A stretch of DNA of 26,519 bases from a virus (IMGVR_UViG_3300044621_001275:1-26519), one strand, 5' to 3'; positions 1,479-26,519 are shown, counted from the first letter of the stretch. Made by a program: numbers and translations. The notes: generated from the sequence alone by a model not told the origin.

Positions 1479-1835
1479 ATGTCTATCAAGATCTGTCGCA
1501 AATGTAAAAAAGAAAAAGACATAATTGAATTCCCTTTTTTCTCTACGAACGATGCTGGCCGCAAAAACACATGCAGATCGTGTAATAATGAACTCAGTAA
1601 TTTGCGCCGAAACCTACGCGCCCAGAACCGCCCACCTATTGCTGGGCCATGTCCCATCTGCAAAAGCCACACAACAACTTGGATATTAGATCATTGTCAT
1701 TTTGACGATACATTTCGCGGGTATATATGCAACAGTTGTAATTTAGGCATTGGGCGATTCAATGATGATATATCTATTCTCTATAACGCTATAGAATACC
1801 TGAACACGCAAAATAATATACAATACCATATATGA
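1479..1835 (+). CDS. Recombination endonuclease VII-like HNH nuclease
   Basis: The 118-aa product matches the phage endonuclease VII family (T4 gp49 type), which cleaves Holliday junctions and other branched DNA so that the genome can be packaged. The core has the zinc-binding pairs C58/C61 and C84/C87 around the His-Cys-type active site LDHCH (D71, H72). It ends with FRGYICNSCNLGIGRFNDD, the usual signature, with N88 at the expected catalytic place. An extra pair of Cys doublets (C6/C9, C32/C35) forms a second likely zinc site at the N-terminus. It is the first gene of the rightward block. Its stop overlaps the next start by four bases (ATGA). There is no clear Shine-Dalgarno sequence; AATATAATAA precedes the ATG. 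Confidence 0.88.
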   Translation: MSIKICRKCKKEKDIIEFPFFSTNDAGRKNTCRSCNNELSNLRRNLRAQNRPPIAGPCPICKSHTTTWILDHCHFDDTFRGYICNSCNLGIGRFNDDISILYNAIEYLNTQNNIQYHI

Positions 1836-2647
1836 GAATATTGATTACTGGTGGCAGCGGCTTTATCGGCACCCATTTAATAAAAAAACTATCTAATGAC
1901 GGACATGACATTTATAATCTGGACAAAATTAGCAGCCCCGCACTCCCGCCCGACAAACAAAAGATAATAGATATACTAGATATCGACGTTAACGATGCTT
2001 TCTTCGACAATATAGACACTATCATTCATCTAGCTGGTATGGTGAGTGTACCGAAATCATTTGAAGATCCAATAAATAGCTTTGGCAATAATGCATTCTG
2101 TACTGTAAAATTATTATCAGCCGCCCACCTTCATAAGATTAAGAAATTTGTCTTCGCTTCTAGCGCAGCGGTGTACGGCAGTAAAGAAGGTACGGTGAGT
2201 GAAACTGATGCCGCCGAACCTAACAGTCCATACGGATTAGATAAGTTAGCCTCCGAAAAATACATACAAATGTATTGCCAACAATGGGGTATCGATTATT
2301 TAATATTTCGCTTCTTCAATGTGTATGGTGAAGGACAGAATCCGCAATACGCTGGAGTAATAACGGCATTTAATGTCGCCGCTCAGAAAAAAGAGCCGCT
2401 GATCGTTTATGGAGATGGTGAACAGACTAGGGATTTCGTCAGTGTTAACGATGTGTGCAGTTATATTTCTAAACTAATCATTACTATGGTTAAGAATGAG
2501 ATATTTAACATTGGAACCGGCAAATCTGTTTCTATAAACTCACTTGCAAAACAATTCGGTAGTCATATAATACACAAAGAAGCGAAGAAAGAAGTTCGTC
2601 ACTCATGCGCTGACGTTAAAAAGTTATTTTCTATTTTAAATGTATAA
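1832..2647 (+). CDS. NAD-dependent epimerase/dehydratase (extended SDR)
   Basis: This is a nucleotide-sugar-modifying enzyme of the extended short-chain dehydrogenase family, closest in style to UDP-glucose 4-epimerases and dTDP-glucose 4,6-dehydratases. The Rossmann motif GGSGFIG is at residues 7-13. SSAAVYG is present, and the catalytic YGLDK (Y134, K138) follows SP. RFFNVYGEGQNP and GDGEQTRDFVSVNDV are typical substrate-side motifs. At 271 aa it is about 30-50 residues shorter than the family and stops just after EVRHSCADVKKLF, so the C-terminal substrate cap is trimmed. The exact sugar cannot be read from the sequence. It overlaps its upstream neighbour by 4 bases and its downstream neighbour by 8, implying coupled translation. 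It presumably supplies a sugar donor to the glycosyltransferases that follow. Its codons are more G/C-rich than theirs. Confidence 0.88.
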   Translation: MRILITGGSGFIGTHLIKKLSNDGHDIYNLDKISSPALPPDKQKIIDILDIDVNDAFFDNIDTIIHLAGMVSVPKSFEDPINSFGNNAFCTVKLLSAAHLHKIKKFVFASSAAVYGSKEGTVSETDAAEPNSPYGLDKLASEKYIQMYCQQWGIDYLIFRFFNVYGEGQNPQYAGVITAFNVAAQKKEPLIVYGDGEQTRDFVSVNDVCSYISKLIITMVKNEIFNIGTGKSVSINSLAKQFGSHIIHKEAKKEVRHSCADVKKLFSILNV

Positions 2648-4010
2648 AACACTTATTTTTTCTTATTATGTTGACGCCAACGAAGAAAGAGACAAAGAAT
2701 TAATTCATTGTTTTGAAAAAAATTTAAAAATTGGATTTGATTGTATTGTTGTATTTTCAGAAGTCGATATAGATATATTGTATAAGAAAATAGATAATAA
2801 CGCATTAGAGAATTTTAATGGTCGTATGCTTTTTAAAGAAGTGAAACGACGGCCAACTTACAATGATTTTTTTGAAGCTTCTAAATTAAGCGCGTTCGAC
2901 AAAGAGAAAGAAAAATTATTTTTTATCACTAATTCTGATATCTATTTTGAAGATCTTTATAAAGTGGAAGACTTCTATCGCCCAATCGATGATAAACAAA
3001 ATACTATTTTAGCGTTATCTCGTTGGGATGTGCAAAAAGACGGTTCAAGTAAATATGTAGATAGAATAGACAGTCAAGACGCTTGGATATTTTATAATTC
3101 AATAGTTTTTTCTTTAAAAGAAGATTTTACTATGGGCGTACCTGGTTGTGATAATAGATTGGCTCATGAATTACGCTTTAATAATTATAATATCTTAAAT
3201 GCAAGTGATACAATAAGAGTATATCATTATCATTTAAGTAATATTAGACGATATGTCGATAATAATGAAGTACATGAAGCTTTTATAAACAATGAATCTA
3301 AAAGAATAAGCGGCCCGTACTATTTATTTTCACAGTACGAGAAGCTGTTAAAAGATAAAGAAAAAAAGAAAGTAATATCTTTCTCTTTATATGAAAATAA
3401 TCCTAAGTACTGTGTAGGCGCAATCAAAAACGCAAAATTAGCTAAACACATTTATCCAGATTGGGTTTGTCGTTTTTATGTATCTAAAAATATAGATTCA
3501 TATTATGTTAATGAATTAAGTAACATGGATAATACAGAAATAGTTATCGTTAATGAATTTGAAAATAATAACGCTATGTTTTGGAGGTTTTTACCGATAT
3601 GTGATACTTCGGTAGACGTCATGATTTCTAGAGATTGTGATTCTAGATTATGTATGCGAGAAAAATATGCTGTAGATGATTGGATATCATCTGGTAACGG
3701 TTTCCATATAATGAGAGACCATCCATATCATCATTTTAAAATAATGGGAGGAATGTTTGGAGTTAAAAACGGTTGTTTACCTAATTTTGCAAAGCTGCTA
3801 AATGATTATAAAAATGACAATACTTATAATAATGATCATTTTTTTTTACAAGACGTAATCTATCCAATAATAAAAGAAAATTATACTATACACGATGTAT
3901 TTGCTAGAGACAAACCTTTTCCGACATTAAGATCATCAAATAAAAAATTTGTTGGGGAAATTTATGATGAAAACGATAATCGACATCCCGATCATTACAA
4001 ACTTATTTGA
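2640..4010 (+). CDS. Two-domain glycosyltransferase-like protein
   Basis: The 456-aa product appears to hold two GT-A-like halves. Residues 1 to about 235 contain FFITNSDIYFEDL (N98-S99-D100), resembling the metal- and nucleotide-binding stretch of family-A transferases, followed by an SxQDAWIF segment. Residues from about 243 to the end begin VISFSLYENNPKYC and continue through MFWRFLP to ISRDCDSRL, whose D332-C-D334 is a good DxD motif. FHIMRDHPYHH and IMGGMFGVK follow. I recall this second half as a conserved family of putative glycosyltransferases, but donor and acceptor are unknown. No membrane segment or signal peptide is visible, so it should act in the cytoplasm. The start overlaps the epimerase gene by eight bases. 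Strong A/T bias (many Asn, Lys, Ile, Tyr) sets it apart from the gene before it. Confidence 0.7.
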   Translation: MYKTLIFSYYVDANEERDKELIHCFEKNLKIGFDCIVVFSEVDIDILYKKIDNNALENFNGRMLFKEVKRRPTYNDFFEASKLSAFDKEKEKLFFITNSDIYFEDLYKVEDFYRPIDDKQNTILALSRWDVQKDGSSKYVDRIDSQDAWIFYNSIVFSLKEDFTMGVPGCDNRLAHELRFNNYNILNASDTIRVYHYHLSNIRRYVDNNEVHEAFINNESKRISGPYYLFSQYEKLLKDKEKKKVISFSLYENNPKYCVGAIKNAKLAKHIYPDWVCRFYVSKNIDSYYVNELSNMDNTEIVIVNEFENNNAMFWRFLPICDTSVDVMISRDCDSRLCMREKYAVDDWISSGNGFHIMRDHPYHHFKIMGGMFGVKNGCLPNFAKLLNDYKNDNTYNNDHFFLQDVIYPIIKENYTIHDVFARDKPFPTLRSSNKKFVGEIYDENDNRHPDHYKLI

Positions 4011-4052: not shown

Positions 4053-4670
4053 ATGATATCTAGAGAACAATTAACAACTATTTTTGAACAAAACAAACTA
4101 TTAGGAACAGGCGTAGAAGTCGGATCTTTTGAAGGGGGTTATGCGAATGAAATTTTAAAACAATGGTCAGGCAAACTTTATCTTATCGATGTGTGGAGAC
4201 CACTAGACGTTAAAGATTATGAAGACTGTTCTAATCAAAACAATTATAAAACAATTATTAACAAATGTTTAGATAATATTTCTGGACACGAAGATAGATG
4301 TTTCATGATTAGAAGCGATAGCGTTAATGGTGCTGAACTGTTTAATGACGAATCATTAGATTTTATCTATATCGATGCGAATCATAAATACGAATTCGTT
4401 AAACAAGATATGGAAACATGGTTTCCAAAATTAAGAAACGGCGGTATCTTTGCTGGACATGATTATTTAAAAATGGATTGGTATGCTGATGGAAATTACG
4501 CGCAAAATAATAAAGACAAGCACATTTGGACACAAACTTCTAGCGGTAACTTTGATAATTACGCGGGACTGTTTGGTGTGAATCCAGCAGTCGATGAATT
4601 TTGTAAAAAATATGGATATAAATTTGATTTAACTAACGAATGGTTTGGCTCTTGGTATTTTACTAAATAA
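4053..4670 (+). CDS. Class I SAM-dependent methyltransferase
   Basis: The 205-aa product has the SAM-binding motif I at residues 21-29 (VEVGSFEGG), an acidic end of strand 2 in LYLIDVW, and the post-core DFIYIDANHKYEFVKQDMETW block. The latter is typical of the methyltransferase group found beside glycosyltransferases (Methyltransf_24-like). NGGIFAGHDY follows. The likely reaction is O-methylation of a sugar or polar side chain. The sequence gives no direct substrate evidence. It sits 42 bases after the two-domain glycosyltransferase and one base before the four-domain protein. The leader ATATAAAATAATACA before its ATG contains no Shine-Dalgarno sequence. Confidence 0.8.
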   Translation: MISREQLTTIFEQNKLLGTGVEVGSFEGGYANEILKQWSGKLYLIDVWRPLDVKDYEDCSNQNNYKTIINKCLDNISGHEDRCFMIRSDSVNGAELFNDESLDFIYIDANHKYEFVKQDMETWFPKLRNGGIFAGHDYLKMDWYADGNYAQNNKDKHIWTQTSSGNFDNYAGLFGVNPAVDEFCKKYGYKFDLTNEWFGSWYFTK

Positions 4671-4671
4671 T

Positions 4672-7600
4672 ATGAATTATTTTATAACACATAGTGATAA
4701 AAATTATGTCGAAGTAGCTGAAAAATTATTTAAAAGTTTAGAATCGCATTCTAATTATAAAATCTTATATTACACGGTAAATTTCAAATATAAGAACACC
4801 TTCTCTAATGTAATTCCAGTCTATTACAAAACCGATTTTAAACAAACTTCCGATTTCACAGAAGAAAGGGGTATTAATAATAATTCTGAATTAGTAAGAG
4901 CAAATCTTTTATTTTTAAAATCAAAAATATGTAATGAATCGTTAAAAAATCAAAATCATAATTTTTGTTATGTGGATGCTGATTGTATAGCTATTGAAAA
5001 TTGCGATGAAATTTTTGACAATGTAGATAAAATAACTTCATATCCATTGTTGGGAGAAAATTGTCATCAGTATATGATTTACAACGGAAAAGGAGATCCT
5101 TTCTTACCTGATGGAACTCTTGATTTAAATTTGTGTTTAGAAGAGCCGTTATTAAAAAAATTAAACATTCCAATTAGCAAAAGAAGCTCTTTGTATAGAC
5201 AAAGTAATATTTTACTGTTCAATAAGAAATGCTCAAACGTTATAAACGAATGGGAAAAAATTTGTTATAATTCTGTAGTAACATCTGAATGGAATAAATA
5301 CGCTTGTTTTAATGATGAGACTGTATTGAATTGTATATTATGGAGAGATAATATGAATGATCATTTATCCCAAATTTCAATAAATATTCCAGCTAAAAAT
5401 GATGATGGTAACTTTGTTGAGCCTAAAAAATTAAATGATTTTATAAATGCTTATAAAAACCCAAAAGATAATGATATTTATTGTGGAACTTTTTGTAAAA
5501 TCCCTAGTAAGGATAAAATAAATAATATAAAATTTCTACATGGAAGAGTTTCTGAGGATCAATTTGAATATATTAATAAAATTTTAACGAATCAAAACAC
5601 AATGCAACAAAATAAAAAATCAAAGTACGTTTATTTAATACATAGTACAAGTCTTGGTGATACAATTGCTAGTACTCCGGTTTTAAGAAAACTGTATAAT
5701 AGTTATGGATGTAAAATAGATGTAGTAACTTATCATTCTGAAATTTTTAAAAAAAATCCATACGTAAATAATGTTTTTGAATTTTCTTCTTTTGATTTAA
5801 CTCAAACAGCTTATAAAGAAAAATTTGAGTCGTTTTTTGGAGTTGGTGGTATTAAAAATAATCTAGGCGTAGAAAAAAAACATAATACAATAGATATTCG
5901 TCAATTTCATGCTATTGATTTAGGCTTTATGTTAAATAACGATGAAATGCAATACGATTTCATATCGGATGATTATATAAATATAGATGATTTGCCCGAA
6001 AAGTATGTCTGTATTCATGCGGCTAATACTTGGCCATCTAGAACGTATTCTGATGAAAAATTTACACAATTAATTGATGATTTAAATAAAAATAATATTC
6101 CTGTCGTATTGGTAGGTAAAAATTCTATTGAACATGGGTTTTATATAGTAGATAAGAAAACAAAAAAAATAACAATTAAAAACGGATTAGACTTAACAAA
6201 CAAATTAAATCTATCTCAGTGTTGGCACGTTATTAATAAATCAATATGTTTTATCACTATGGATTCTGGCCTTCTTCATTTAGCTGGAACCACCGATACT
6301 AATATAATTCAACTTGGATCTTCAATAAATAATAAATTAAGAGCGCCTTATCGTAATGGTTCTCAAGATTATAAATATAAATATATAAGTGGTACATGCG
6401 GCATCTTCTGCGCATCAGATATAAAATATGGAGTTAAAGAATGGGGTACTATCCAAGGCATCCCTCCATTGATAAATTGTTTAGAAAATAAAAATACTTT
6501 TGAGTGTCATCCAAATCCATTGGATGTGTATAATTACATTATTAATAATTTTGCCAATTCATTCGATTCAAAAATCGATTTATACTATTTAGATAAAAAT
6601 AATTGCAATAATATCACTATTCATTATCGATCTAAAAATTGTAATGTGCATAATTGTAATATTAAAGTCTTAGATATTCAAACAAAAACTATTCTTTATG
6701 AATGTTTTATGGATATAAAAGAAGGTGAAAATTATTGGACTAATCTAGGATATATTTCATACATAATAACAAATGATATTCGCGTCGTATTTACTGATGA
6801 AGACACTATAATTTTTAATGAAATATATAAAATACATGAACAAGACAGAAAAACTCCAGTTAGTCATTTGAGTTTTAATTATGATTTACATTCTTGCAAT
6901 TTATATGAAATATATATTTACAAAGAATATGAATATCAAGATATTAAACTAGAAAAAAATGATGTTGTAGTAGATATTGGATCTAATCTATCGACTTTTA
7001 TATGTTACGCTTTAGAAAATAAAGCTAGTAAAGTTTATTCTTGCGAACCAACATCTTATTGTTTAAGCGTTATTAATAAATATTTTAAAGATAATGATAA
7101 AGTCGTTATAAATGATTGTGCGATATCCGATAAAAATGGTTATACTTTTATTGACATTCTAAAAGAAGGTTCGGGAGCGAATAAGATATCAACAGTAGAC
7201 GCTAATGATAAAAATGCTTATCAAGGATGCCATAAAGAAAAAGTAAAAACTCAAACTTTCAAGTCGTTTTTAAAAAACAACAAGATAGAAAAAATTGACT
7301 TTTTAAAAGTTGACTGCGAGGGCGGAGAAATTTTTATTTTTGTTGATGAAAATAAGGATTTCTTTAAAAACAAAGTTCATAAAATTGCTATGGAATACCA
7401 TAATGAACAAAAAGATGATATTATTGCATATCTTAAATCTTTAAATTATGAAGTTTTTGAAAAAATTCACAATAATAATGACTTTATCCTTGGGGCTATT
7501 TATGCAAAAAATAAAAATTTTAATAAACAGCCTGTAACTTTATTTTTAGCTCCTCATCTTTCAACTGGTGGATCGCCAGCTTATTTAAAATGGTTGATCG

Positions 7601-8505
7601 AAGAAAATATTAAGAACAATATTAAACCCGTAGTCATTGAATATTGTAATTACGGATCTTACGAAGTTCAGAAAAAACAAATTATAGATTTAGTAGGCAA
7701 AGATAATTTTCACACTTTTGGAAATCATTGGGATTTAGATTTAGAATATAAAATTAAATCTTTAGATCTTATAAAATTAATTGATAGTATTAATCCTTCA
7801 GTCATCCATTTAAACGAAATTTCTGAAGCTTTTAGTTTAAAAAATATAACTCAATTGTTATTTGATTATCTGTACTCTAAAGACAGATCTTTTAAGATTG
7901 TTGAAACGTCGCATACTTCTGATTTTAACTTCGCTAATAAAAAATATTTACCAGATAGATTTGATTTTTGTACTCCATACCATTTAGAAAAAACCAAACA
8001 CTTAAATGTAGAAAAAAATATTGTTGAAATGACTATACCAAATAAGCTTAGACCAAACAGATCAGAAAAACTAAAAAAATTAGGTTTATCGGAAAATTAT
8101 TTTCATGTTTTAAACGTCGGACTATTCACAAAAGATAAAAATCAAAAATATTTATTTGAATTAGCTGAAAGACTTCAAGATAAAAAGATCATGTTTCATT
8201 TCGTTGGTAACACATGTTATTATAATGATTGTGGAATAACGGACGCCCAAAAGAATTTAAAAAATAATATATTATGGGAAGAACGTGACGATGTTGACTC
8301 ATTCATGTCTTGTATGGATTTATTCGCTTTTCCATCTTTAAAAGAATTGAATCCGATATCAATTAAAGAAGCATTAAGTTGGAACATGCCGTGTTATATA
8401 AATCGTCTTGAAACTTATGGTGCAAAATACGATAATCATCCGTTAATAAACTACATCGAAAACGATAATTTATTTAATCTATTAAATAATATACCTTATG
8501 TATAA
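4672..8505 (+). CDS. Four-domain glycosyltransferase/methyltransferase fusion (1277 aa)
   Basis: Four catalytic domains are readable in order. (1) Residues 1 to about 310: a GT-A-like domain with DAD at 102-104 in CYVDADCIA. (2) About 319-640: a GT9/heptosyltransferase-like GT-B domain opening with HSTSLGDT and carrying TMDSGLLHLAG near 530, followed by several Cys residues. (3) About 750-945: an FkbM-type methyltransferase with VVVDIGSN (764-772) and KVDCEGGE around 881. (4) About 955-1277: a GT4-like GT-B domain with LAPHLSTGG, NVGLFTKDKNQ and the EX7E pair in KELNPISIKEAL. A beta-rich linker lies at about 650-750. I chose the ATG at 4672, one base after the preceding stop; an ATG 27 bases upstream lies inside that gene. 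Fusing transfer and methylation steps suggests assembly of a defined methylated glycan by one polypeptide. It overlaps the next gene by eight bases. Confidence 0.85.
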   Translation: MNYFITHSDKNYVEVAEKLFKSLESHSNYKILYYTVNFKYKNTFSNVIPVYYKTDFKQTSDFTEERGINNNSELVRANLLFLKSKICNESLKNQNHNFCYVDADCIAIENCDEIFDNVDKITSYPLLGENCHQYMIYNGKGDPFLPDGTLDLNLCLEEPLLKKLNIPISKRSSLYRQSNILLFNKKCSNVINEWEKICYNSVVTSEWNKYACFNDETVLNCILWRDNMNDHLSQISINIPAKNDDGNFVEPKKLNDFINAYKNPKDNDIYCGTFCKIPSKDKINNIKFLHGRVSEDQFEYINKILTNQNTMQQNKKSKYVYLIHSTSLGDTIASTPVLRKLYNSYGCKIDVVTYHSEIFKKNPYVNNVFEFSSFDLTQTAYKEKFESFFGVGGIKNNLGVEKKHNTIDIRQFHAIDLGFMLNNDEMQYDFISDDYINIDDLPEKYVCIHAANTWPSRTYSDEKFTQLIDDLNKNNIPVVLVGKNSIEHGFYIVDKKTKKITIKNGLDLTNKLNLSQCWHVINKSICFITMDSGLLHLAGTTDTNIIQLGSSINNKLRAPYRNGSQDYKYKYISGTCGIFCASDIKYGVKEWGTIQGIPPLINCLENKNTFECHPNPLDVYNYIINNFANSFDSKIDLYYLDKNNCNNITIHYRSKNCNVHNCNIKVLDIQTKTILYECFMDIKEGENYWTNLGYISYIITNDIRVVFTDEDTIIFNEIYKIHEQDRKTPVSHLSFNYDLHSCNLYEIYIYKEYEYQDIKLEKNDVVVDIGSNLSTFICYALENKASKVYSCEPTSYCLSVINKYFKDNDKVVINDCAISDKNGYTFIDILKEGSGANKISTVDANDKNAYQGCHKEKVKTQTFKSFLKNNKIEKIDFLKVDCEGGEIFIFVDENKDFFKNKVHKIAMEYHNEQKDDIIAYLKSLNYEVFEKIHNNNDFILGAIYAKNKNFNKQPVTLFLAPHLSTGGSPAYLKWLIEENIKNNIKPVVIEYCNYGSYEVQKKQIIDLVGKDNFHTFGNHWDLDLEYKIKSLDLIKLIDSINPSVIHLNEISEAFSLKNITQLLFDYLYSKDRSFKIVETSHTSDFNFANKKYLPDRFDFCTPYHLEKTKHLNVEKNIVEMTIPNKLRPNRSEKLKKLGLSENYFHVLNVGLFTKDKNQKYLFELAERLQDKKIMFHFVGNTCYYNDCGITDAQKNLKNNILWEERDDVDSFMSCMDLFAFPSLKELNPISIKEALSWNMPCYINRLETYGAKYDNHPLINYIENDNLFNLLNNIPYV

Positions 8506-10573
8506 CCATAAATTTGGAATAGTAACGTCATTTTATAATTCAGAGAAATATGTTGATGAGGTTTTTGAATCCATATCGAATCAAACGTATAAAAATTGGA
8601 TTTATTTCGTTACTGATGATGAAAGCACTGACGGAACAAAAGAAAAAATACTTAAGTATTGCGATAATATTAAAGTATTTTATGTCGAACAAAAATTTAA
8701 GAAAGAAATGTTTTGGCAACCACAGCGTTTTGTAACTGAAGACTGCGATTACGTTATAACAATGGATTCAGATGATTATGTATTGCCTAAAGCTTTAGAG
8801 GTTTATAATAATGCTTTAAATAAATATAAGAATAATAATATAGTATTTATATCTTGCGATTCAGCTTGGATGAGTGAGGATTTCAATCATTTATTGAATT
8901 ATACATATGTATATCATAATAAATCTTATTATTTAAATGACAACGATGTAGAAAGAAATACGCGAGGCATTGATAGAGTCTCTCCAAATACTTTTGGAAG
9001 TTTTCGTGGGATAAAAAATATTAAAGATTTAGATTTTGGAGTGAATTCTTATAATGCCGCAGGTAATAACGATATATTGCATACTGGATTATTACAAAAT
9101 TTAGGAAATTCATTACTTGTTCAAAGAAATTTATATAAATATAGATATAGAACGTCAAGCATATCGCATAAGATGTTAGATGACACCGAATGGCATCATA
9201 CAACAGTTATAAGAGATATTTTAAAAGATGAAGTGAAAAATTTTGATTGTCGAGTGGTTAATATGCAATTTAAAAATCTTTATAACGATTTTGCCGCTTT
9301 ATTAATATGCGATGATTTAGGAAACATTAATTCTAATTATAGAATTAATTTAATAACTAAATTTATTAATAAAGATTTTGATCATTTAAAAAATATTTAC
9401 AAAGAACATTTTATTGATATAAATAATTTTATTGATGATTTTGATTTTTATGTTGTCAATTTAACTGATTACGATTTAAATGATCGTATGGAAATAAGTA
9501 AAATTTTTAATTATATAAAATCTAAAAATTATTATAAAATAGTTGTTTATAATCACGATAAAAGAACATCGTTGGAGATAGAGGTTGATCCTAGTTTATG
9601 CACTAATCAGATGAATAAAATAGTTTCAGAAAATCTTTTAGAATATTTTTGGACGACATATTATAGAAAGTATTCTTGTTTAAGTAGTAATCAAAATTAT
9701 ATTGTTGCTGATAATTCTATAAATATTATAAATGAATCTGGAAGTTTAGGTGATAGTATAGCGTGGATTCCAATTGTGAATGAATTCGCTATTCAAAAAA
9801 GATCAAAAGTTAATTTATACACACCAAATAAAGAGCTATTTATAAACGAATATCCAATGATTAATTTTTATGATTATTGTGAAAAACCTTCTGATGATAA
9901 GAAAGGTGTTTATAAAATAGGCTGTTTTAATGAAAACGATTGGAAACCTTACTCTTTACAAGAAATTGCGAGCAATATTTTAGGAATCAAATATGAAGAA
10001 AAAAAATGCAAATTAAATTTTGATAAAACAAAAAAATCTAATTTTAATAAAAAATACGTTTGTATAGCGACTCAATCTACCGCCCAGTGCAAATATTGGA
10101 ATAATAAGGAAGGATGGACTAAAGTTGTAAGTTATTTAAATTCACTTGGTTACGATGTGGTATGCATCGATAAACATTATAGTTATGGGGCGAAAGGCAT
10201 AATGAATATTATTCCTGAAAACGTCATAAATAAAACTGGAGATTTACCGCTGGAAGATAGAATAAATGATTTATATCATTGTGAATTTTTTATAGGTTTA
10301 GGATCTGGCTTGTCATGGTTAGCGTGGGCTTGCGAAAAACCTGTTATAATGATTTCTGGATTTTCAGATCCTAAGTCTGAATTTTATACGCCATATCGAG
10401 TTCATAATAAAAATGTTTGTAACAGTTGTTGGAGCGATTTGAATTGTACGTTCGATAGGTCGAATTGGCTTTGGTGTCCTAGAGACAAAGATTTTGAATG
10501 CTCACGCGAAATAACATTTGACATGGTAAAAGAAAAAATAGATCTTTGCATTCAAGATTTGTCAAAGAAATGA
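8498..10573 (+). CDS. Fusion of GT2 glycosyltransferase and TibC/BAHT-type heptosyltransferase
   Basis: Residues 1 to about 250 are a GT2 domain: FGIVTSFYNSEKYVDEVFES, the DDESTDGT loop, and the DxD-like MDSDD at 89-93. After a poorly conserved middle section, residues from about 410 to 691 match bacterial autotransporter O-heptosyltransferases (TibC-like). They carry ESGSLGDS at 413-420, YWNNKEGW, GLGSGLSWLAW at 600-610, and a C-terminal Cys cluster (C641, C644, C660, C668, plus C650) in VCNSC, WCPR and FEC. In TibC, cysteines of this region bind iron. That family transfers heptose to hydroxyl side chains of repetitive surface proteins. Sugar identity here is not inferable. It overlaps its upstream neighbour by 8 bases and its downstream neighbour by 4. 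Confidence 0.82.
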   Translation: MYNHKFGIVTSFYNSEKYVDEVFESISNQTYKNWIYFVTDDESTDGTKEKILKYCDNIKVFYVEQKFKKEMFWQPQRFVTEDCDYVITMDSDDYVLPKALEVYNNALNKYKNNNIVFISCDSAWMSEDFNHLLNYTYVYHNKSYYLNDNDVERNTRGIDRVSPNTFGSFRGIKNIKDLDFGVNSYNAAGNNDILHTGLLQNLGNSLLVQRNLYKYRYRTSSISHKMLDDTEWHHTTVIRDILKDEVKNFDCRVVNMQFKNLYNDFAALLICDDLGNINSNYRINLITKFINKDFDHLKNIYKEHFIDINNFIDDFDFYVVNLTDYDLNDRMEISKIFNYIKSKNYYKIVVYNHDKRTSLEIEVDPSLCTNQMNKIVSENLLEYFWTTYYRKYSCLSSNQNYIVADNSINIINESGSLGDSIAWIPIVNEFAIQKRSKVNLYTPNKELFINEYPMINFYDYCEKPSDDKKGVYKIGCFNENDWKPYSLQEIASNILGIKYEEKKCKLNFDKTKKSNFNKKYVCIATQSTAQCKYWNNKEGWTKVVSYLNSLGYDVVCIDKHYSYGAKGIMNIIPENVINKTGDLPLEDRINDLYHCEFFIGLGSGLSWLAWACEKPVIMISGFSDPKSEFYTPYRVHNKNVCNSCWSDLNCTFDRSNWLWCPRDKDFECSREITFDMVKEKIDLCIQDLSKK

Positions 10574-11394
10574 AAGTTAAAATAACTATAACCACTTCTT
10601 CTTTAGGAGATACCATTGGTGCTGTTGCTCAGGTAAATAAATATCAAAAATTAACAAACAACGAAGTAGGTCTTTATATAAATAATTCTTATATCTGTCT
10701 CTTTAAAGATTCTTATCCTAATATAAAATTTAATCCAATAAATTTTGAATATGAAAATCAAAAATTAATAAATTTTTATTTTGATCGTCCTTTGCAGAAA
10801 GGATTTTCTGATGATTTAGGAATGGAGTACGAAGAAATAAATACAAGAATAGATAATCATATTGGTGCGCGACCAATCAAGCAAAAATATATAACTATTT
10901 CCACTCATTCCACTCATCAAGGTCGTTATTGGAACAACGATAATGGATGGGATAATTTAATAAGATACCTTAAGTCTAAATATGATATTTCTACTGTCTG
11001 TATAGATAGGGATTACTCATTTGGAATAAAATTCTGTATGAATCCCATACCAAAAAAAGCAATTGATCGATCAGGTTTAAATTTAAAAGAATGCGTTAAT
11101 TATATTAATCATTCACAATTTCATGTAGGAACTTCTAATGGATTGTCTTGGTTGGCGCATGGAATTAATAAGCATGTAGTGTTAATATCAAACGTTACTA
11201 AACCTTGGTGTGAATTCACTACAAATGTAACAAGGATTCATGATGATTCTATCTGTAATGGCTGTTTAAATGAAGAACAATTTGACACAACGAATTGGTT
11301 GTGGTGTCCGAGGCAGAAGAATTTTGAATGTACCAAGAAAATTTCTTTTGAAAGTTTTAAATCTAAAATAGATAATTGCATAATTAATTTATGA
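10570..11394 (+). CDS. TibC/BAHT-type heptosyltransferase-like protein, stand-alone
   Basis: The 274-aa product is a second, single-domain copy of the C-terminal half of the preceding protein. Shared features are TSSLGDT (residues 9-15), HQGRYWNNDNGW, TSNGLSWLAHG, and a Cys cluster C229, C232, C246, C254 in ICNGC, LWCPR and FEC, with the same 7-residue last gap. It shows DSICNGC where the neighbour has NVCNSC. Lengths and gaps differ, so this is an old duplication and not a recent one. I chose the ATG at 10570, which overlaps the preceding stop as ATGA; an upstream ATG at 10546 is inside that gene. TibC-type enzymes act as large oligomers, so the two copies could form a mixed assembly. This is inference. 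Confidence 0.8.
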   Translation: MKVKITITTSSLGDTIGAVAQVNKYQKLTNNEVGLYINNSYICLFKDSYPNIKFNPINFEYENQKLINFYFDRPLQKGFSDDLGMEYEEINTRIDNHIGARPIKQKYITISTHSTHQGRYWNNDNGWDNLIRYLKSKYDISTVCIDRDYSFGIKFCMNPIPKKAIDRSGLNLKECVNYINHSQFHVGTSNGLSWLAHGINKHVVLISNVTKPWCEFTTNVTRIHDDSICNGCLNEEQFDTTNWLWCPRQKNFECTKKISFESFKSKIDNCIINL

Positions 11395-11768
11395 TAAATT
11401 TATTAGTAGATGAGGCTTATGCTTTTGATTATCTTAGTATCTTAGAAGTTAAAAAACAAAAATCTTCTATATCTAATGATGCTTGGACCAAATGCTATGC
11501 GTATTTACAAAATCAATTTGATAATGAAAAATGGTCGCACATGATGCGTTCAAAAGAATACGAAAGTATGATTAAAGCTAATGAATTAACATTTGATGCG
11601 GTTGATAAAGCTAAAAATAATGAAGTAACCGCACAACACGTTGATTATTGTAATTATCAAAGACATATAGCAAAACAAAATTTTCAAAAGAAGTTTTTTA
11701 CATCTGATTTGTCTGAGTTAAAGATAGGTTACGAAAAATATATTCATAATAATCACACTGATGTTTAA
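11391..11768 (+). CDS. Helical protein of unknown function in glycosylation cluster
   Basis: The 125-aa product is predicted to be mainly alpha-helical and rich in Lys, Asn and aromatic residues. No catalytic motif, signal peptide or membrane helix is visible, and I do not recognise a family. Its start overlaps the stop of the TibC-like gene (ATGA), so translation is probably coupled and a role with the glycosyltransferases is plausible. Its last 71 bases overlap the 3' end of the leftward GT4 gene, an unusual convergent arrangement for a compact phage genome. Confidence 0.75.
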   Translation: MINLLVDEAYAFDYLSILEVKKQKSSISNDAWTKCYAYLQNQFDNEKWSHMMRSKEYESMIKANELTFDAVDKAKNNEVTAQHVDYCNYQRHIAKQNFQKKFFTSDLSELKIGYEKYIHNNHTDV

Positions 11769-12762
11769 TTGTAAATCTTGAGTTAGCGTTTTTATAACAA
11801 TTTTCAGGATTGATGAACTTATCTATATTTTGAGTGGCATAAATCATATCGTTTGTAGTAGAACATCTTAATCCAGTTTCTCCTTGCAATACCGTTTCGG
11901 TAAAGCCGCCGAAATTTGTTGTAATGGTAGGCGTTCCTGAAAATTGAGCTTCAATAACTGTCCAATTGCATGGCTCCATAAATAACGAAGGAGCAAATAA
12001 AAATTTCGCATCGCTTAGTAAATTCATTCGTTCAATAGGACCAACGAATCCTGCAAATTTACAATGTTTAGTTTCTTTAAGATTCAAGATATTTGGCCCT
12101 GCGAATACGATATCTTGTCCAACATGATTGCAGATATCATAAGCAAGTTGTGCGCCTTTTTCTTCTATAACCCTGCCTAAAAATAATGCTGTATTTGATT
12201 TTTCTTTTTTGTATATGAAGTCGTCAGGATCAAAGCCGGGATAAACAACATATTCGCATCCTAATTCAACGTGTGTTTTAGAATGACCATGCATTTTATG
12301 CATTTGACTATATGTTTCAAACATCTTGATTGGCGCGAACATGCTATCATAACCTATACTTGGTTCTACTACTATAGCTTTGTCGTAAAAATGTTTAACA
12401 CATGATTCATGCGCGAACCCAAACCAGCATAATATAAATTCATTACTTGATTTTATTCTTTTGTTTAACTCTGTAACACAATTGTCATTAAACACATTAA
12501 CCGCTTTTGTATTGACGTTTTGATCAAAACCTTTAGTCTTCCAATCATTTAAGTTGCCATAGCTATTAATTAATATATCATTATTAGTAACATTAATATG
12601 TTCTGTGCAATTAACAATAGAGTTTTCGTGACCATAATGATAAACAGTATGACCCCTCTTAGTCATTTCGTCGCAAAACTTATAAACTTTTTGCACAAAA
12701 GCACATAATGAAACATCTTTTCTAGTAGGCGAGTAAGGAACGCTCAAACAGTGAAAAATCAT
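11698..12762 (-). CDS. GT4-family glycosyltransferase, leftward
   Basis: The 354-aa product is a GT-B retaining transferase. Its N-terminal half starts MIFHCLSVPYSP and includes KRGHTVYHYG. The C-terminal half has ALFLGRVIEEKGAQLA (donor-binding loop) and FAPSLFMEPCNWTVIEAQFSGTP, whose E-x7-E pair matches the GT4 motif, then TTNFGGFTETVLQGETG. Catalytic features look intact. Donor and acceptor are unknown. It is the only sizeable gene read leftward, sitting between the coupled rightward cassette and phoH. The 27-base divergent gap to phoH contains TATAAATA in its orientation. Opposite orientation and A/T-rich composition fit separate acquisition of a glycosylation gene. Confidence 0.85.
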   Translation of the reverse strand: MIFHCLSVPYSPTRKDVSLCAFVQKVYKFCDEMTKRGHTVYHYGHENSIVNCTEHINVTNNDILINSYGNLNDWKTKGFDQNVNTKAVNVFNDNCVTELNKRIKSSNEFILCWFGFAHESCVKHFYDKAIVVEPSIGYDSMFAPIKMFETYSQMHKMHGHSKTHVELGCEYVVYPGFDPDDFIYKKEKSNTALFLGRVIEEKGAQLAYDICNHVGQDIVFAGPNILNLKETKHCKFAGFVGPIERMNLLSDAKFLFAPSLFMEPCNWTVIEAQFSGTPTITTNFGGFTETVLQGETGLRCSTTNDMIYATQNIDKFINPENCYKNANSRFTIKHQCDYYEYIFRNLSLTQTNQM

Positions 12763-12789
12763 ATATAATAGTGTAAATTTATTTATAGT
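12763..12789. promoter_or_regulatory. 27-bp divergent gap with possible promoter elements
   Basis: This short gap separates the starts of the leftward GT4 gene and phoH. The minus strand carries TATAAATA (12780-12787), identical to the T4 late-promoter core, 17 bases before the GT4 ATG. The + strand carries GTGTAA (12771-12776), 19 bases before the phoH ATG. GTGTAA recurs 14-19 bases before several other starts that follow gaps. Both assignments rest on motif matching alone. Confidence 0.4.
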
Positions 12790-13539
12790 ATGTCAATCAA
12801 AAAGAAAAAAATTCAAAAAGAAAAACACGATCTGAACGACATTATCTCAAATAATAGTTTTAAATCGACTAAATTAACAATTAAGAATTTTAATTTAACG
12901 GATAAGCAAAAAAGTTTTACTCAAATAGCTTTTGATAAAAATACTAAAATTGTTTTTATTAATGGACCTGCCGGAAGTTCTAAAACATTTTTGGCTGTTT
13001 ATTGTGCATTGCATATGTTAAATATGAATTCAAAGTACGAGATCAAATACATTAGAACAATCGTCGAGTCTGGAGAAAGAGGCTTAGGTTCTTTGCCTGG
13101 AACTGTAGATGAAAAGTTTAATCCTTTTATGATACCACTGTATGATAAGTTGGATGAACTTATTCCCATGTCTCAATCAAAATATCTTGAAACTAGTGGT
13201 ATTATAGAGGCTTTGCCTGTGAACTTCTTAAGAGGTGCTACATGGAACGAGAAGATCATTATTGCAGACGAATCTCAGAACTATAGCAGCAAGGAGTTGA
13301 TTACTCTTCTCACTCGTATTGGCGAGAATACTAAAATGTTTATCTGCGGAGACGCTATGCAATCAGACATTGGAAACAAATCTGGTTTTATGAAAATTTA
13401 TGATTTGTTCAATAATAAAGACAGCGAAGAAAGAGGTATTTATTGTTTTGAATTTAATGAAGAAGATATTATGCGTAGTGAGATTCTTAAATACATCGTT
13501 CATTCTCTTAAGAGATTAGATAAAACAAACATTCATTGA
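12790..13539 (+). CDS. phoH: PhoH-like P-loop ATPase
   Basis: The 249-aa product belongs to the PhoH family, common in phage genomes and thought to be an ATPase with RNA- or helicase-related activity. The Walker A motif GPAGSSKT is at residues 59-66. The segment ESGERGLGSLPGTVDEKFNPFM and the Walker B IIIADESQN (D160, E161) follow in the order typical of the family. CGDAMQSDI resembles the sensor region. A Lys-rich N-terminal extension of about 35 residues precedes the core. It lies 10 bases before the zinc-ribbon gene. Its role in infection is unknown; nucleic-acid metabolism is likely. Confidence 0.9.
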   Translation: MSIKKKKIQKEKHDLNDIISNNSFKSTKLTIKNFNLTDKQKSFTQIAFDKNTKIVFINGPAGSSKTFLAVYCALHMLNMNSKYEIKYIRTIVESGERGLGSLPGTVDEKFNPFMIPLYDKLDELIPMSQSKYLETSGIIEALPVNFLRGATWNEKIIIADESQNYSSKELITLLTRIGENTKMFICGDAMQSDIGNKSGFMKIYDLFNNKDSEERGIYCFEFNEEDIMRSEILKYIVHSLKRLDKTNIH

Positions 13540-13549
13540 TATAATAACC

Positions 13550-13954
13550 ATGAGTAATATTTACTGTTCAAGTTGCGGAACAAAACATGCCCAAGGCTCT
13601 AAATTCTGTACTAACTGTGGGGTTTCTTTGGGAGGATTTGCAAACATCAGTAAACCGACTTTACAAAATTCACTACAATCGAGATCTACCTCTCGCAAAC
13701 AAAATACAGAAGTCGATGAAGATGGTATTCCCACTGTATTCGTTAGACCATCGAAGCTTTCATACGAAATAGAAAAACCAGCAGGTAATAAATATTTAGG
13801 AAAAGATTTATTTAACGCTCCTCCAGTCGATCCAAGTGAAAGAATAAATTCAAGACCGAATTCCAATTATAGAAAACTAAGTAAAGAAGAATTTTTAAGT
13901 CAGTCGTTGAAGGAGTGTAGTTCGCGCCCAATACAAGACATAGATGAATCGTAA
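13550..13954 (+). CDS. Zinc-ribbon protein of unknown function
   Basis: The first 24 residues form a short zinc ribbon: C6-x2-C9 and C20-x2-C23, in YCSSCGTKHAQGSKFCTNCG. The remaining 110 residues are Ser/Pro/Arg/Lys-rich and probably flexible. The fold suggests nucleic-acid or protein binding. Its position between phoH and the sigma-like gene hints at a transcription or RNA role, which is inference. It overlaps the next start by 11 bases. Confidence 0.75.
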   Translation: MSNIYCSSCGTKHAQGSKFCTNCGVSLGGFANISKPTLQNSLQSRSTSRKQNTEVDEDGIPTVFVRPSKLSYEIEKPAGNKYLGKDLFNAPPVDPSERINSRPNSNYRKLSKEEFLSQSLKECSSRPIQDIDES

Positions 13955-14657
13955 AAAGAAAAATTTTGAAGACATGTATGAGATTATTAACCAAGTAATC
14001 AAAAAGCGCAGAAACAAGTGGAAGTTAAAAGCGATTACTTGGTTTGATTTTGAAGATATAGAGCAAGTCATTAAACTTCATATATATAAAAAATGGCATC
14101 TGTGGGATCAATCGCGAGCGATTGAACCTTGGGTGAATCGTATAGTCACGAATCAAATTAGAAATATTATACGCAATAATTATACAAGTTTTGCGCGTCC
14201 TTGTTTGTCTTGTCCATTTAATCAAAATAAAGAAGGTGATTCTGGAATAGAAATGTCATGTGGTTTTACAACTAGCGGCAAACAATGTAATGAATGTCCA
14301 TTATACGCTAAATGGGAGAAAGTAAAAAAATCCGCTTACGATGTTAAGATGACCGTGAGTTTAGAGAATCATAAAAATTATTTTATGAATTGTGAATCAA
14401 GCATAAGTTATGATTATAAAAACGCTGAAAGTAAACTTCATGGTTTAATGAAAAACAATTTAGGAGATAAGCATTTCTTTATTTATAAAATGTTTTTTAT
14501 AGATAATCTTAGCGATGATCAAGTAGCCCAAGTGTTAAAGTTTAAAACAAGCGAAAAAGGAAGAAAAGCGGGTTACAAACAAATAAAAAATTTAAAAAAA
14601 ATGTTGTATGTGAAAGCTCAATTGTTATTAAAAGAAAACGATATATTCTCATCTTAA
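13944..14657 (+). CDS. Sigma-70-like factor with cysteine cluster
   Basis: The 237-aa product has the pattern of a reduced phage sigma factor. Residues about 30-80 (FEDIEQVIKLHIYKKWHLWDQS... EPWVNRIVTNQIRNIIRNNY) resemble region 2, which binds RNA polymerase and melts the -10 region. Residues about 185-225 (DNLSDDQVAQVL, GYKQIKNLKKML) resemble a region 4 helix-turn-helix. Between them is a Cys-rich insert (C87, C90, C106, C115, C118) that looks metal-binding and is not part of ordinary sigma factors. By analogy with T4 gp55 it could direct RNA polymerase to late promoters. The promoter motif it would use is not known. It is followed one base later by the next gene. Confidence 0.7.
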   Translation: MNRKKKNFEDMYEIINQVIKKRRNKWKLKAITWFDFEDIEQVIKLHIYKKWHLWDQSRAIEPWVNRIVTNQIRNIIRNNYTSFARPCLSCPFNQNKEGDSGIEMSCGFTTSGKQCNECPLYAKWEKVKKSAYDVKMTVSLENHKNYFMNCESSISYDYKNAESKLHGLMKNNLGDKHFFIYKMFFIDNLSDDQVAQVLKFKTSEKGRKAGYKQIKNLKKMLYVKAQLLLKENDIFSS

Positions 14658-14658
14658 T

Positions 14659-15729
14659 ATGTTAACGGACGAAAACAAAGCATTTATATTAAAAAAGATT
14701 AACGAAGGAATTCAAGATTACGTTGTTCTCGCTAATCTACTTTATAATCGTGAAGATTTAACGGGCAGGTCTAAAGAGGCAAAGTTAGTCAGAGACTTTC
14801 TTTTAACAACTGGATTTGTTAAAAAACAAGAAAAGCCAAAGCCCACACAAACAATAGAAATACTATCAAAAGAAAATTGTGAATTTATTGAACAAAACAT
14901 TAAAACAAGAATAACTCCTAGGCAAGTAACAGAGTTAATATTTCATGAAAAATTTCTGGGCCTTGAAAACTTTAATATTTTTATTACACCTGAGTATAGA
15001 GCCGTTCAAAAATACATAAAAGAAAAATATCCTGATTATCTTGTAGATAACGAATCTGGAGTTGGCGACAAATACTCTGTTCCTCGTTCAATCAGAACAG
15101 TAATCAATAAAGCGAATAAATGGTGCGGCCAAAACATTTCTGAAGAAAAATTATCTTTGCAACATAGAAAATGGATGGAAAAATTATTAAATTATTTATC
15201 AAGTCCAAGATTTGTTGGCAATTACGACTCATACAATAGCTCTATAGATAAAGAATTATTTGAAGCAGAATTCGTGCGCTCTGTTTGGGACAAGCCTGAC
15301 TTAACTGTCGATGAAATTAATTTGTATATTAATGTTTGCATGGACTATATCAATTTAAGACAGATTGATATTAAAAAGAATAAGATAAATGATATGTTCA
15401 ATGAGACGCAAGATCAGAAAGACTTCACAATGCGTCTAACTGAGGTTCTTAAGACGATCTCTGAAGAATACAATCAGTGCGCTGGGCGTATAGACAAGAG
15501 TATTCAAAAGCTCAATGGCGAACGGTCCAAGAGAGTAGAGCAAACGCATCAGAAGAACGCTTCTATACTTAACCTTGTAGAACTTTTCCAAGACGAGCAA
15601 GAACGCAAAATGATGATTCAAATTGCCGATATGCAAAAGCGCACTATTAAGGAGGAAGCTGATCGTTTAGAGAATATGTCTTCATGGAAAGCTAGAATTT
15701 TAGGAATTTCTAAAGAAGATGCAATATAA
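14659..15729 (+). CDS. Helical protein upstream of terminase; possible small terminase
   Basis: The 356-aa product is largely helical. The N-terminus seems to hold two related helical modules: residues about 1-52 (ENKAFILKKINEG... REDLTGRSKEAKLVRDFL) and about 70-127 (KENCEFIEQNIKT... ITPEYRAVQKYIKEKYP). These look like duplicated helix-turn-helix-type units. The C-terminal half, from about residue 215, is rich in Lys/Glu and is a probable coiled coil ending in ERKMMIQIADMQKR. DNA-binding repeats plus an oligomerising coiled coil, together with its place before the packaging genes, fit a terminase small subunit. I see no diagnostic motif and treat this as a hypothesis. Its stop overlaps the methyltransferase start by one base (TAATG). 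Confidence 0.6.
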   Translation: MLTDENKAFILKKINEGIQDYVVLANLLYNREDLTGRSKEAKLVRDFLLTTGFVKKQEKPKPTQTIEILSKENCEFIEQNIKTRITPRQVTELIFHEKFLGLENFNIFITPEYRAVQKYIKEKYPDYLVDNESGVGDKYSVPRSIRTVINKANKWCGQNISEEKLSLQHRKWMEKLLNYLSSPRFVGNYDSYNSSIDKELFEAEFVRSVWDKPDLTVDEINLYINVCMDYINLRQIDIKKNKINDMFNETQDQKDFTMRLTEVLKTISEEYNQCAGRIDKSIQKLNGERSKRVEQTHQKNASILNLVELFQDEQERKMMIQIADMQKRTIKEEADRLENMSSWKARILGISKEDAI

Positions 15730-16301
15730 TGAATTTTCATTTACCATTTAATGGCGATAGCTTTATAGCTAATAATTTTTTAAAACTTAAACAAAAATTC
15801 AATATAGAAAACATTATTGAAACTGGAACATATGAAGGTGGCACAGCTATTTTTTTAGCAAGAAATTTTAAAAATGTTTTTTCAATTGAATGTAATGAAG
15901 AAATTATTAAAAAAGCTAATGTTAATATCAAAAACGCTAACGTTAATGTCGATTTGATATTTGGAAAAAGTGAAGAAGTCCTTGAGTTTGTATTACCTAA
16001 AATAAATGATAAAACTATATTTTATTTAGATGCTCATTGGTATGGCCATTGTCCTTTAAAAAATGAATTAAATTTGATAAAGAAATTTAATTTAAAACCC
16101 GTTATCGCTATTCATGATTTTTATGTTCCTGGTAGTAAAAATTTAGGTTATGACATTTATAATAATCAATCATTTACTTACGAGTGGATTAAAGGAGATT
16201 TAGATTTAATTTATGAAAATAATTATAGTTATTTTTATAACAATGATATTGATAGCGAAGGCGCAAAACGTGGAATAATTTATATTTTTCCTAATAATTG
16301 A
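15729..16301 (+). CDS. SAM-dependent methyltransferase-like protein
   Basis: The 190-aa product begins with a class I methyltransferase motif I, IIETGTYEGGTA (about residues 29-40), followed by VFSIECNEE as the acidic end of the second strand. FYLDAHWYGHCP and AIHDFYVPG follow as in sugar-linked methyltransferases. Substrate is not evident. It is A/T-rich like the glycosylation genes but lies 3 kb downstream of them, between the helical gene and the ERCC4-type nuclease. It therefore looks like an inserted extra gene in the packaging module. The next gene starts one base after its stop. Confidence 0.78.
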   Translation: MNFHLPFNGDSFIANNFLKLKQKFNIENIIETGTYEGGTAIFLARNFKNVFSIECNEEIIKKANVNIKNANVNVDLIFGKSEEVLEFVLPKINDKTIFYLDAHWYGHCPLKNELNLIKKFNLKPVIAIHDFYVPGSKNLGYDIYNNQSFTYEWIKGDLDLIYENNYSYFYNNDIDSEGAKRGIIYIFPNN

Positions 16302-25786: not shown

Positions 25787-26519
25787 ATGTCAAATATAGA
25801 TGTCAACGTTTCCTCTAATAATAATCAAATAAATGTAACTGTTGGAGGCGGATCTAATTCTACTGTTGTTGAAAGTAGTAATAAGAATACTATTTTAGTA
25901 GAGTCAGTTGCGCCAGCAGGATCAACTAGTAATATTGTTGAAAGAGGACCGGCTGGCACTTCAGGAACTAGCGGTACAGCAGGAACTTCTGGAACAAATG
26001 GTACTTCAGGAACTTCTGGAACTTCAGGATCTAGTGGGTCATCAGGATCATCAGGCACTAGCGGATCTTCAGGATCATCAGGCAGTAGCGGATCTTCAGG
26101 AAGTTCAGGCAGCAGTGGATCTTCAGGATCATCTGGTACTAGTGGATCTTCAGGAAGTTCAGGAAGTTCAGGCAGTTCAGGTAGTTCAGGAACTTCTGGA
26201 AGTTCAGGAACCAGTGGCTCTTCAGGAACAAGTAGTTCGTCTGGCACTTCTGGTAGTTCAGGTAGCTCAGGAAGTTCAGGAAGCAGTGGGTCTTCTGGAA
26301 GTTCAGGAACCAGTGGCTCTTCAGGAACAAGTAGTTCGTCTGGTACTTCTGGTAGTTCAGGTAGCTCAGGAAGTTCAGGAAGTTCAGGAAGTAGTGGGTC
26401 TTCTGGAAGTTCAGGAACCAGTGGCTCTTCAGGAACAAGTAGTTCGTCTGGTACTTCTGGTAGTTCAGGTAGCTCAGGAAGTTCAGGAAGTTCAGGAAGT
26501 AGTGGGTCTTCTGGAAGTT
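25787..26519 (+). CDS. Gly/Ser/Thr-repeat (collagen-like) fibre protein, 3'-truncated
   Basis: The reading frame opens with ATG at 25787 (MSNIDVNVSSNNNQINVTVG) and stays open to the window edge, giving at least 244 residues with no stop. After about 55 residues, ending with NIVERGPAG, the sequence becomes a run of three-residue units of the type G-T-S and G-S-S, with occasional GTSSSS. Every third residue is Gly, as in collagen, but Pro is absent from the repeat, so a different filament is likely. Ser and Thr make up about two thirds of the repeat and would give many O-glycosylation acceptors. At the DNA level it contains 99-108-base tandem units. Such repeats are common in phage tail or head fibres. 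The C-terminus is missing from the window. Confidence 0.82.
   Translation, partial: MSNIDVNVSSNNNQINVTVGGGSNSTVVESSNKNTILVESVAPAGSTSNIVERGPAGTSGTSGTAGTSGTNGTSGTSGTSGSSGSSGSSGTSGSSGSSGSSGSSGSSGSSGSSGSSGTSGSSGSSGSSGSSGSSGTSGSSGTSGSSGTSSSSGTSGSSGSSGSSGSSGSSGSSGTSGSSGTSSSSGTSGSSGSSGSSGSSGSSGSSGSSGTSGSSGTSSSSGTSGSSGSSGSSGSSGSSGSSGS
26198..26519 (+). repeat. Tandem DNA repeats of 99-108 bases within the fibre gene
   Basis: The string GGAAGTTCAGGAACCAGTGG recurs with spacings of 99 and 108 bases, and its first part recurs again 108 bases later at the right edge. Spacings are multiples of 9 bases, or three amino acids, and differ by one nine-base unit. This keeps the reading frame and allows length change by slippage or recombination. 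Confidence 0.8.

Follow-up and report, generated by a model that had tools for sequence, protein, structure and literature searches.

The window analysed here is the whole of a 26,519-nucleotide stretch of viral DNA (IMGVR_UViG_3300044621_001275:1-26519). An island of about 9 kb within it holds a single gene for a 1277-aa protein, whose frame runs from an ATG at 4672 to a stop ending at 8505 with zero internal stops. The frame starts one base past the stop of the methyltransferase gene at 4053-4670, and its end is overlapped by 8 bases by the 691-aa gene that follows. The features of the locus are:

1479-1835: small HNH-like gene, 118 aa, conserved, at the left island border (judged by eye from C-x2-C pairs and histidines)
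1832-2647, plus strand: nucleotide-sugar epimerase (PF01370, E 2e-56), with the left island border at about 2610 (homology break 2610-2613)
2640-4010, plus strand: 456-aa island protein with no Pfam family above cut-off and a relative in L003 at 72%
4053-4670, plus strand: Methyltransf_24 methyltransferase (PF13578, E 9e-15)
4672-8505, plus strand: 1277-aa fused protein A-B-C-D-E (open frame, 16 viral relatives, purifying selection in each catalytic module)
4672-5595, plus strand: module A, residues 1-308, GT-A glycosyltransferase fold with DxD (AlphaFold pLDDT 91; WbbM and LgtC; 30-row alignment)
5605-6591, plus strand: module B, residues 312-640, GT9 (heptosyltransferase family) with a four-cysteine motif (PF01075, E 5e-12; invariant columns)
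6592-6876, plus strand: module C, residues 641-735, beta-rich domain (model pLDDT 92)
6877-7506, plus strand: module D, residues 736-945, FkbM-type methyltransferase (PF05050, E 1e-13; TIGR01444, E 3e-18; fold)
7519-8502, plus strand: module E, residues 950-1277, GT4-type GT-B transferase with E-x7-E (PF00534, E 3e-10; invariant columns)
8498-10573, plus strand: 691-aa protein, GT2 plus TibC-type O-heptosyltransferase module F, the latter at about 9713-10570 (TIGR04414, 298 bits; PDB 4RAP, E 1e-64)
10567-11394, plus strand: 275-aa second TibC-type module (TIGR04414, 183 bits, below the 200-bit cut-off)
11391-11768, plus strand: 125-aa conserved protein at the right island border (homology resumes at 11391 or 11734)
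11698-12762, minus strand: convergent GT4-type transferase, conserved, in the right flank (PF00534, E 2e-14; used to fetch 80 loci)
25787-26519, plus strand: G-[ST]-S repeat protein, collagen-like and truncated where the window stops, the candidate acceptor (translation; composition)

A sequence-only reading had placed four catalytic domains for glycan building in the 1277-aa polypeptide, and this is borne out by Pfam for modules B, D and E, by a predicted GT-A fold for module A and by conserved active-site motifs. AlphaFold modelling, which that reading had proposed as a check, gives a GT-A fold for module A and a Rossmann methyltransferase fold for module D. No PDB entry matches the whole protein by sequence, and residues 1-301 match no Pfam family. 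The model of module A, built from 30 relatives (mean pLDDT 91), superposes on WbbM (PDB 6u4b) with a VIA Z of 16.3 over 230 residues at 4.3 A and on LgtC with a VIA Z of 16.0; GT6 enzymes and glycogenin score similarly, and with the GT8, GT6 and glycogenin rows tied the likeness is one of fold only. Its DxD aspartates, D102 and D104, are invariant in 30/30 relatives. In module B, Pfam GT9 matches residues 437-560 (PF01075, 46 bits against a cut-off of 22), and the best match to models of LPS heptosyltransferases I-III is TIGR02201 at 44.8 bits, below the NCBIfam equivalog cut-off of 170.2. The four-cysteine motif of this module, invariant across diverse relatives, may form a metal finger. Module C (95 aa), which shares its pLDDT 92 model with methyltransferase D, is beta-rich, with strands over its first 93 residues, and usually accompanies module D. 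FkbM matches residues 769-927 (PF05050, 52 bits against 22.7; TIGR01444, 66.8 bits against 37.7), and the D-x-G SAM-binding motif of module D is invariant. Lastly, the GT group 1/GT4 family matches residues 1130-1241 (PF00534, 40.3 bits against 26.4), and both E-x7-E glutamates of module E are invariant in 21 relatives. In alignments of 19 to 30 sequences, every module keeps its catalytic motifs with little or no variation.

Relatives of the 1277-aa protein occur on 16 further IMG/VR contigs, most of them near full length. Pairwise dN/dS between the window and its relative L003 is about 0.14 for module A (dN 0.070, dS 0.50), 0.13 for B, 0.19 for D and 0.12 for E, and these low values indicate that each catalytic module is selected as protein; module C evolves faster (0.42). 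The 16 viral relatives and the purifying selection in every module exclude an assembly join as the source of the long frame, the artefact that the sequence-only reading had raised against itself. A cellular origin of the whole fusion was considered and rejected, as the genome contigs searched yielded no full-length relative. The proposal that such a fusion is unusual in phages holds for annotated genomes, where a tblastn search of 50,697 phage records returned single-domain matches only, but not for the phage's own uncultured group, in which such fusions are common and reach 1891 aa.

To compare gene arrangements, we took the conserved convergent GT4 gene as an anchor and mapped the modules of 80 loci with HMMs built on those of the window. 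The 30 loci with both island borders show 18 module arrays (contig ends alone may set a few of these apart) and 20 kinds of multi-module frame, in which modules are fused, split, moved or missing. For instance, the window reads A-B-D-E then G-F, and L003 (3628-8430) reads A-A-B-D-E, with tandem A modules 46% identical to each other where the window has one. Other arrays are A-B-D-x-E-F in a single protein of 1891 aa (L085), A-B-E-F (L035), A-B then E-G-F-D (L064), B then E-G-x-D-F (L022) and E-D then A-x-F-D (L091). In the window the FkbM module separates B from E; in L064 it follows the TibC module, and in L022 it precedes it. It stands alone in L034, and L035-like phages have no fused copy of it. 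In frames that lack D between B and E, the start of the ECHP motif (B) and that of the APHLST motif (E) are separated by 26-31 residues, compared with 348 for the window. The fusion had also been taken to imply that sugar transfer and methylation follow one set order. This inference fails: module order varies, on fused or on separate genes, and reactions need not follow the order of the domains.

The island as a whole is also exchanged. Window DNA is 97.2% identical to that of L064 and L019 over 11391-15730 and 94-96% identical leftward up to 2613, whereas between 2613 and 11391 the alignment holds in patches only. The TibC module forms one shared patch (9719-10560, 91%); L064 has it within another fusion. 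L022 and L023 show the same flank and island pattern with different islands. Phages that are 94-97% identical on both flanks therefore carry unrelated islands, and the island is replaced as a block. Block replacement occurs at bacterial capsule or O-antigen loci, and the island swap resembles it.

A TibC-type module is present in 18/18 arrays. Module F scores 298 bits against TIGR04414, the autotransporter O-heptosyltransferase family (cut-off 200), and the second copy at 10567-11394 scores 183 bits, under that cut-off. The residues reported as functional in TibC are D110, K230 and the iron-finger cysteines 339, 342, 358 and 370 (PMC4358343). All have one-to-one counterparts in module F, and the aspartate and the four cysteines are invariant in 29 relatives. 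Module F thus resembles the TibC/AAH enzymes (TIGR04414, PDB 4RAP) along its catalytic part and retains their catalytic, sugar-binding and iron-finger residues. Unlike these enzymes, the phage modules are fused into multi-enzyme proteins, and the window copies lack the N-terminal beta-barrel, their matches to the TIGR04414 profile beginning at position 77 or 84; relatives L091, L097 and L004 keep the barrel (match from 13-28). No autotransporter gene was recognised within the window. The phage modules also fall in a separate clade tied to G-[ST]-[ST] repeats rather than to autotransporters: in a tree made by a quick method and rooted at midpoint, autotransporter-type TibC rows split from the phage modules and all repeat-linked genes with an SH-aLRT of 98.

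The repeat protein at the end of the window is 48% Ser, 27% Gly and 10% Thr. Of the group's contigs, 54 extend far enough downstream of the capsid gene to be judged; the structural operon there holds such repeats in 48 and lacks them in 6. Related contigs tend to end inside a G-[ST]-S repeat gene; assembly probably fails within the repeats, which would keep full-length repeat proteins out of view. TibC and the repeats are both near-universal in the phage group, so their co-variation within it is uninformative, and the two can be compared in 21 TibC-like loci from bacterial and archaeal genomes and bins; for 20 of these the whole genome was searched for (GGNWSNWSN)4. Nine of them, bacterial or MAG genomes of 1.7-6.1 Mb, have phage-like TibC (Gammaproteobacteria and relatives, a Flavobacteriales MAG, a Nitrosotalea bin and one other bin). 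Of their 104 (G-[ST]-[ST])4 matches genome-wide, 102 fall within the TibC locus, at distances of 0.17 to 7.5 kb from the TibC gene; one further match is on the same numbered contig, just beyond the fetched stretch. Near autotransporter-type TibC, repeats were found at 0/11 loci (Burkholderia, Paraburkholderia, Acetobacter, Anaerospora and rumen bins). One genome of this type, G019, has real repeats on another contig, and the remaining few pattern matches in such genomes are mostly non-Ser/Thr codons. In the cultured Microcystis phage Mel-JY01, 17/17 matches lie within 10 kb of the TibC-containing gene. The rule is not absolute: the 735-kb uncultured phage LR756501 (LR756501.1), with its extreme repeat load, has 7/1447 pattern matches near TibC, and phage LR756504 has TibC and zero repeats. 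A full-text literature search, covering few subscription journals, found no account of the TibC-repeat link, its sole match concerning Cronobacter autoaggregation, and the link appears to be new to the literature searched.

Two observations on annotation accompany this survey. The Mel-JY01 gene at 4750-8430 (locus L099, PP395634.1), annotated as methyltransferase FkbM only, has a TibC-type domain at residues 947-1226 and adjoins G-[ST]-S repeats. In bacterial bins, a TibC-like gene adjoins G-S-S repeat proteins (L126 at 6300-9250, L123, L129 and L127), and one such protein, 0.2 kb away in L126, begins with a lipobox-like sequence; the pair looks like an undescribed bacterial system for glycosylating a surface protein. 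The 308-kb Gammaproteobacteria contig L126 is probably chromosomal, and some short contigs of bins may be viral.

Based on these data, we propose, with a probability of about 0.58, that the 1277-aa protein is a soluble enzyme with several active sites in a phage protein-glycosylation pathway; this pathway would attach a methylated O-glycan to repeat proteins encoded by the phage itself, and the island would diversify that glycan. The TibC-type modules (8498-10573 and 10567-11394) would place the first sugar on Ser/Thr of the G-[ST]-S repeat protein in the cytoplasm; modules A (GT-A), B (GT9) and E (GT4) and the neighbouring GT2 would extend the glycan, and the FkbM and Methyltransf_24 enzymes would methylate hydroxyls. 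The fusion may hold the enzymes together at a fixed ratio, and island swapping together with module exchange inside frames could give near-identical phages different outer glycans. The acceptor, the donor sugars, the linkage order and the role of the glycan are what we infer. A protein acceptor is favoured by the TibC module in every array, by the repeats in structural operons and by the repeat linkage in unrelated genomes, and also by the lack of lipid-linked machinery in the contigs searched (below), by window glycosyltransferases in which no transmembrane-like segment was found, by nucleotide-sugar genes and by island replacement. The last but one include GDP-mannose dehydratase-like, GDP-fucose synthase-like, WecB and RmlB-like genes in relatives of 114 and 128 kb, which also carry nonulosonate synthase- and cytidylyltransferase-like genes and NodU-like carbamoyltransferases. 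Against the proposal we count the 6/54 contigs without repeats, LR756504 and LR756501, the missing beta-barrel and the want of a clear ADP-heptose pathway; in addition, the repeat gene of the window lies 14 kb away from the island rather than adjoining it. The relatives yielded for that pathway only a short cytidylyltransferase-like protein below cut-offs, and as this candidate scores best to glycerol-3-phosphate cytidylyltransferase, phage-encoded ADP-heptose synthesis was rejected.

The main rival is that the island remodels the host surface polysaccharide (LPS O-chain or capsule) during infection to block superinfection, which is how two reports interpret similar polymorphic clusters in cyanophages and pelagimyophages (PMC7824862, PMC7029224). 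LPS synthesis commonly uses GT9 and GT4 enzymes, and module B does match the LPS heptosyltransferase models, under their cut-offs. We nevertheless consider this explanation unlikely, since a protein transferase of TibC type sits in all arrays, its repeat linkage recurs in unrelated genomes, and no initiating polyprenyl-phosphate transferase, flippase or GtrA was found in seven contigs, among them those of 114 and 128 kb (PF02397, PF00953, PF01943 for the Wzx-type flippase and PF04138 for GtrA, 0/7 with control genomes positive, though the contigs may be incomplete).

If the sugars instead go to capsid, tail or fibre proteins of the virion and not to the repeat protein, there is a parallel in the glycosylated capsid and tail tube reported for mycobacteriophages (cited in PMC12619734). 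The TibC clade is, however, tied to repeat genes in the nine bacterial or MAG genomes, which need no such virion proteins, and we regard these acceptors as improbable. Glycosylation of modified DNA bases against restriction is a known role of phage glycosyltransferases (PMC12619734, citing Pyle 2024), but the module families here are those of glycan and protein enzymes, and a thymidylate-synthase-family gene, the source of hydroxymethyl bases, was found in 0/7 contigs where nine control genomes were positive; a DNA substrate is accordingly very hard to credit. The accompanying Tet/JBP search matched no control genome and is uninformative.

The proposed protein-glycosylation pathway has partial parallels elsewhere. 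Chlorovirus PBCV-1 A111/114R is likewise a viral multidomain transferase, with three glycosyltransferase domains, working outside host pathways (PMC7826918); it belongs to an algal virus, makes capsid-protein N-glycans and has no reshuffled arrays or TibC module. The bifunctional WbbM (PDB 6u4b) also joins two transferase domains in one chain and shares the GT-A-type fold of module A, yet it is a bacterial lipopolysaccharide enzyme with 13% identity over the aligned part, and fold likeness shows no function. The cyanophage and pelagimyophage clusters are variable too and contain transferases and nucleotide-sugar enzymes, whereas they are described as separate genes and read as host surface modification, and the excerpted texts mention neither fused arrays nor TibC modules (PMC7824862, PMC7029224). 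In Clostridioides difficile, SgtA glycosylates the collagen-like surface protein BclA3 in a spore system (PMC7157674). Multidomain viral transferases, virion glycosylation and glycosylated collagen-like proteins are therefore each already known from other systems.

We further suggest, tentatively and at somewhat less than even odds, that these phages vary their coat sugars much as bacteria vary capsules: a swappable island of reshufflable enzymes would set methylated O-glycans on G-[ST]-S virion fibres through a repeat-dedicated TibC clade found in phages and aquatic bacteria. If this is true, the Gly-Ser/Thr repeat proteins frequent in this phage group gain an assignable modification and an enzyme for it, and phages own a serotype-like locus for their own particles. 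The reshuffled modules are also a natural experiment on the evolution of glycosyltransferase assembly lines.

Several smaller observations concern the island and its carriers. A PLOD-type GT match in one island protein did not recur among the ten island proteins searched. One related locus (L105, 3267-4841) has a NodU-like carbamoyltransferase inside the island, and the 128-kb relative carries a second cluster (L100, 12260-20000) with nonulosonate, GDP-mannose dehydratase and GDP-fucose synthase-like genes. The putative HNH gene at 1479-1835, if it encodes a homing endonuclease, could promote island exchange. As for the host, the terminase has distant Bacillus and Microcystis phage matches only, and the closest match to NrdJ from the 128-kb relative is in Maribacter phage Panino (49.5%), a weak hint that the host may lie among the Bacteroidota.
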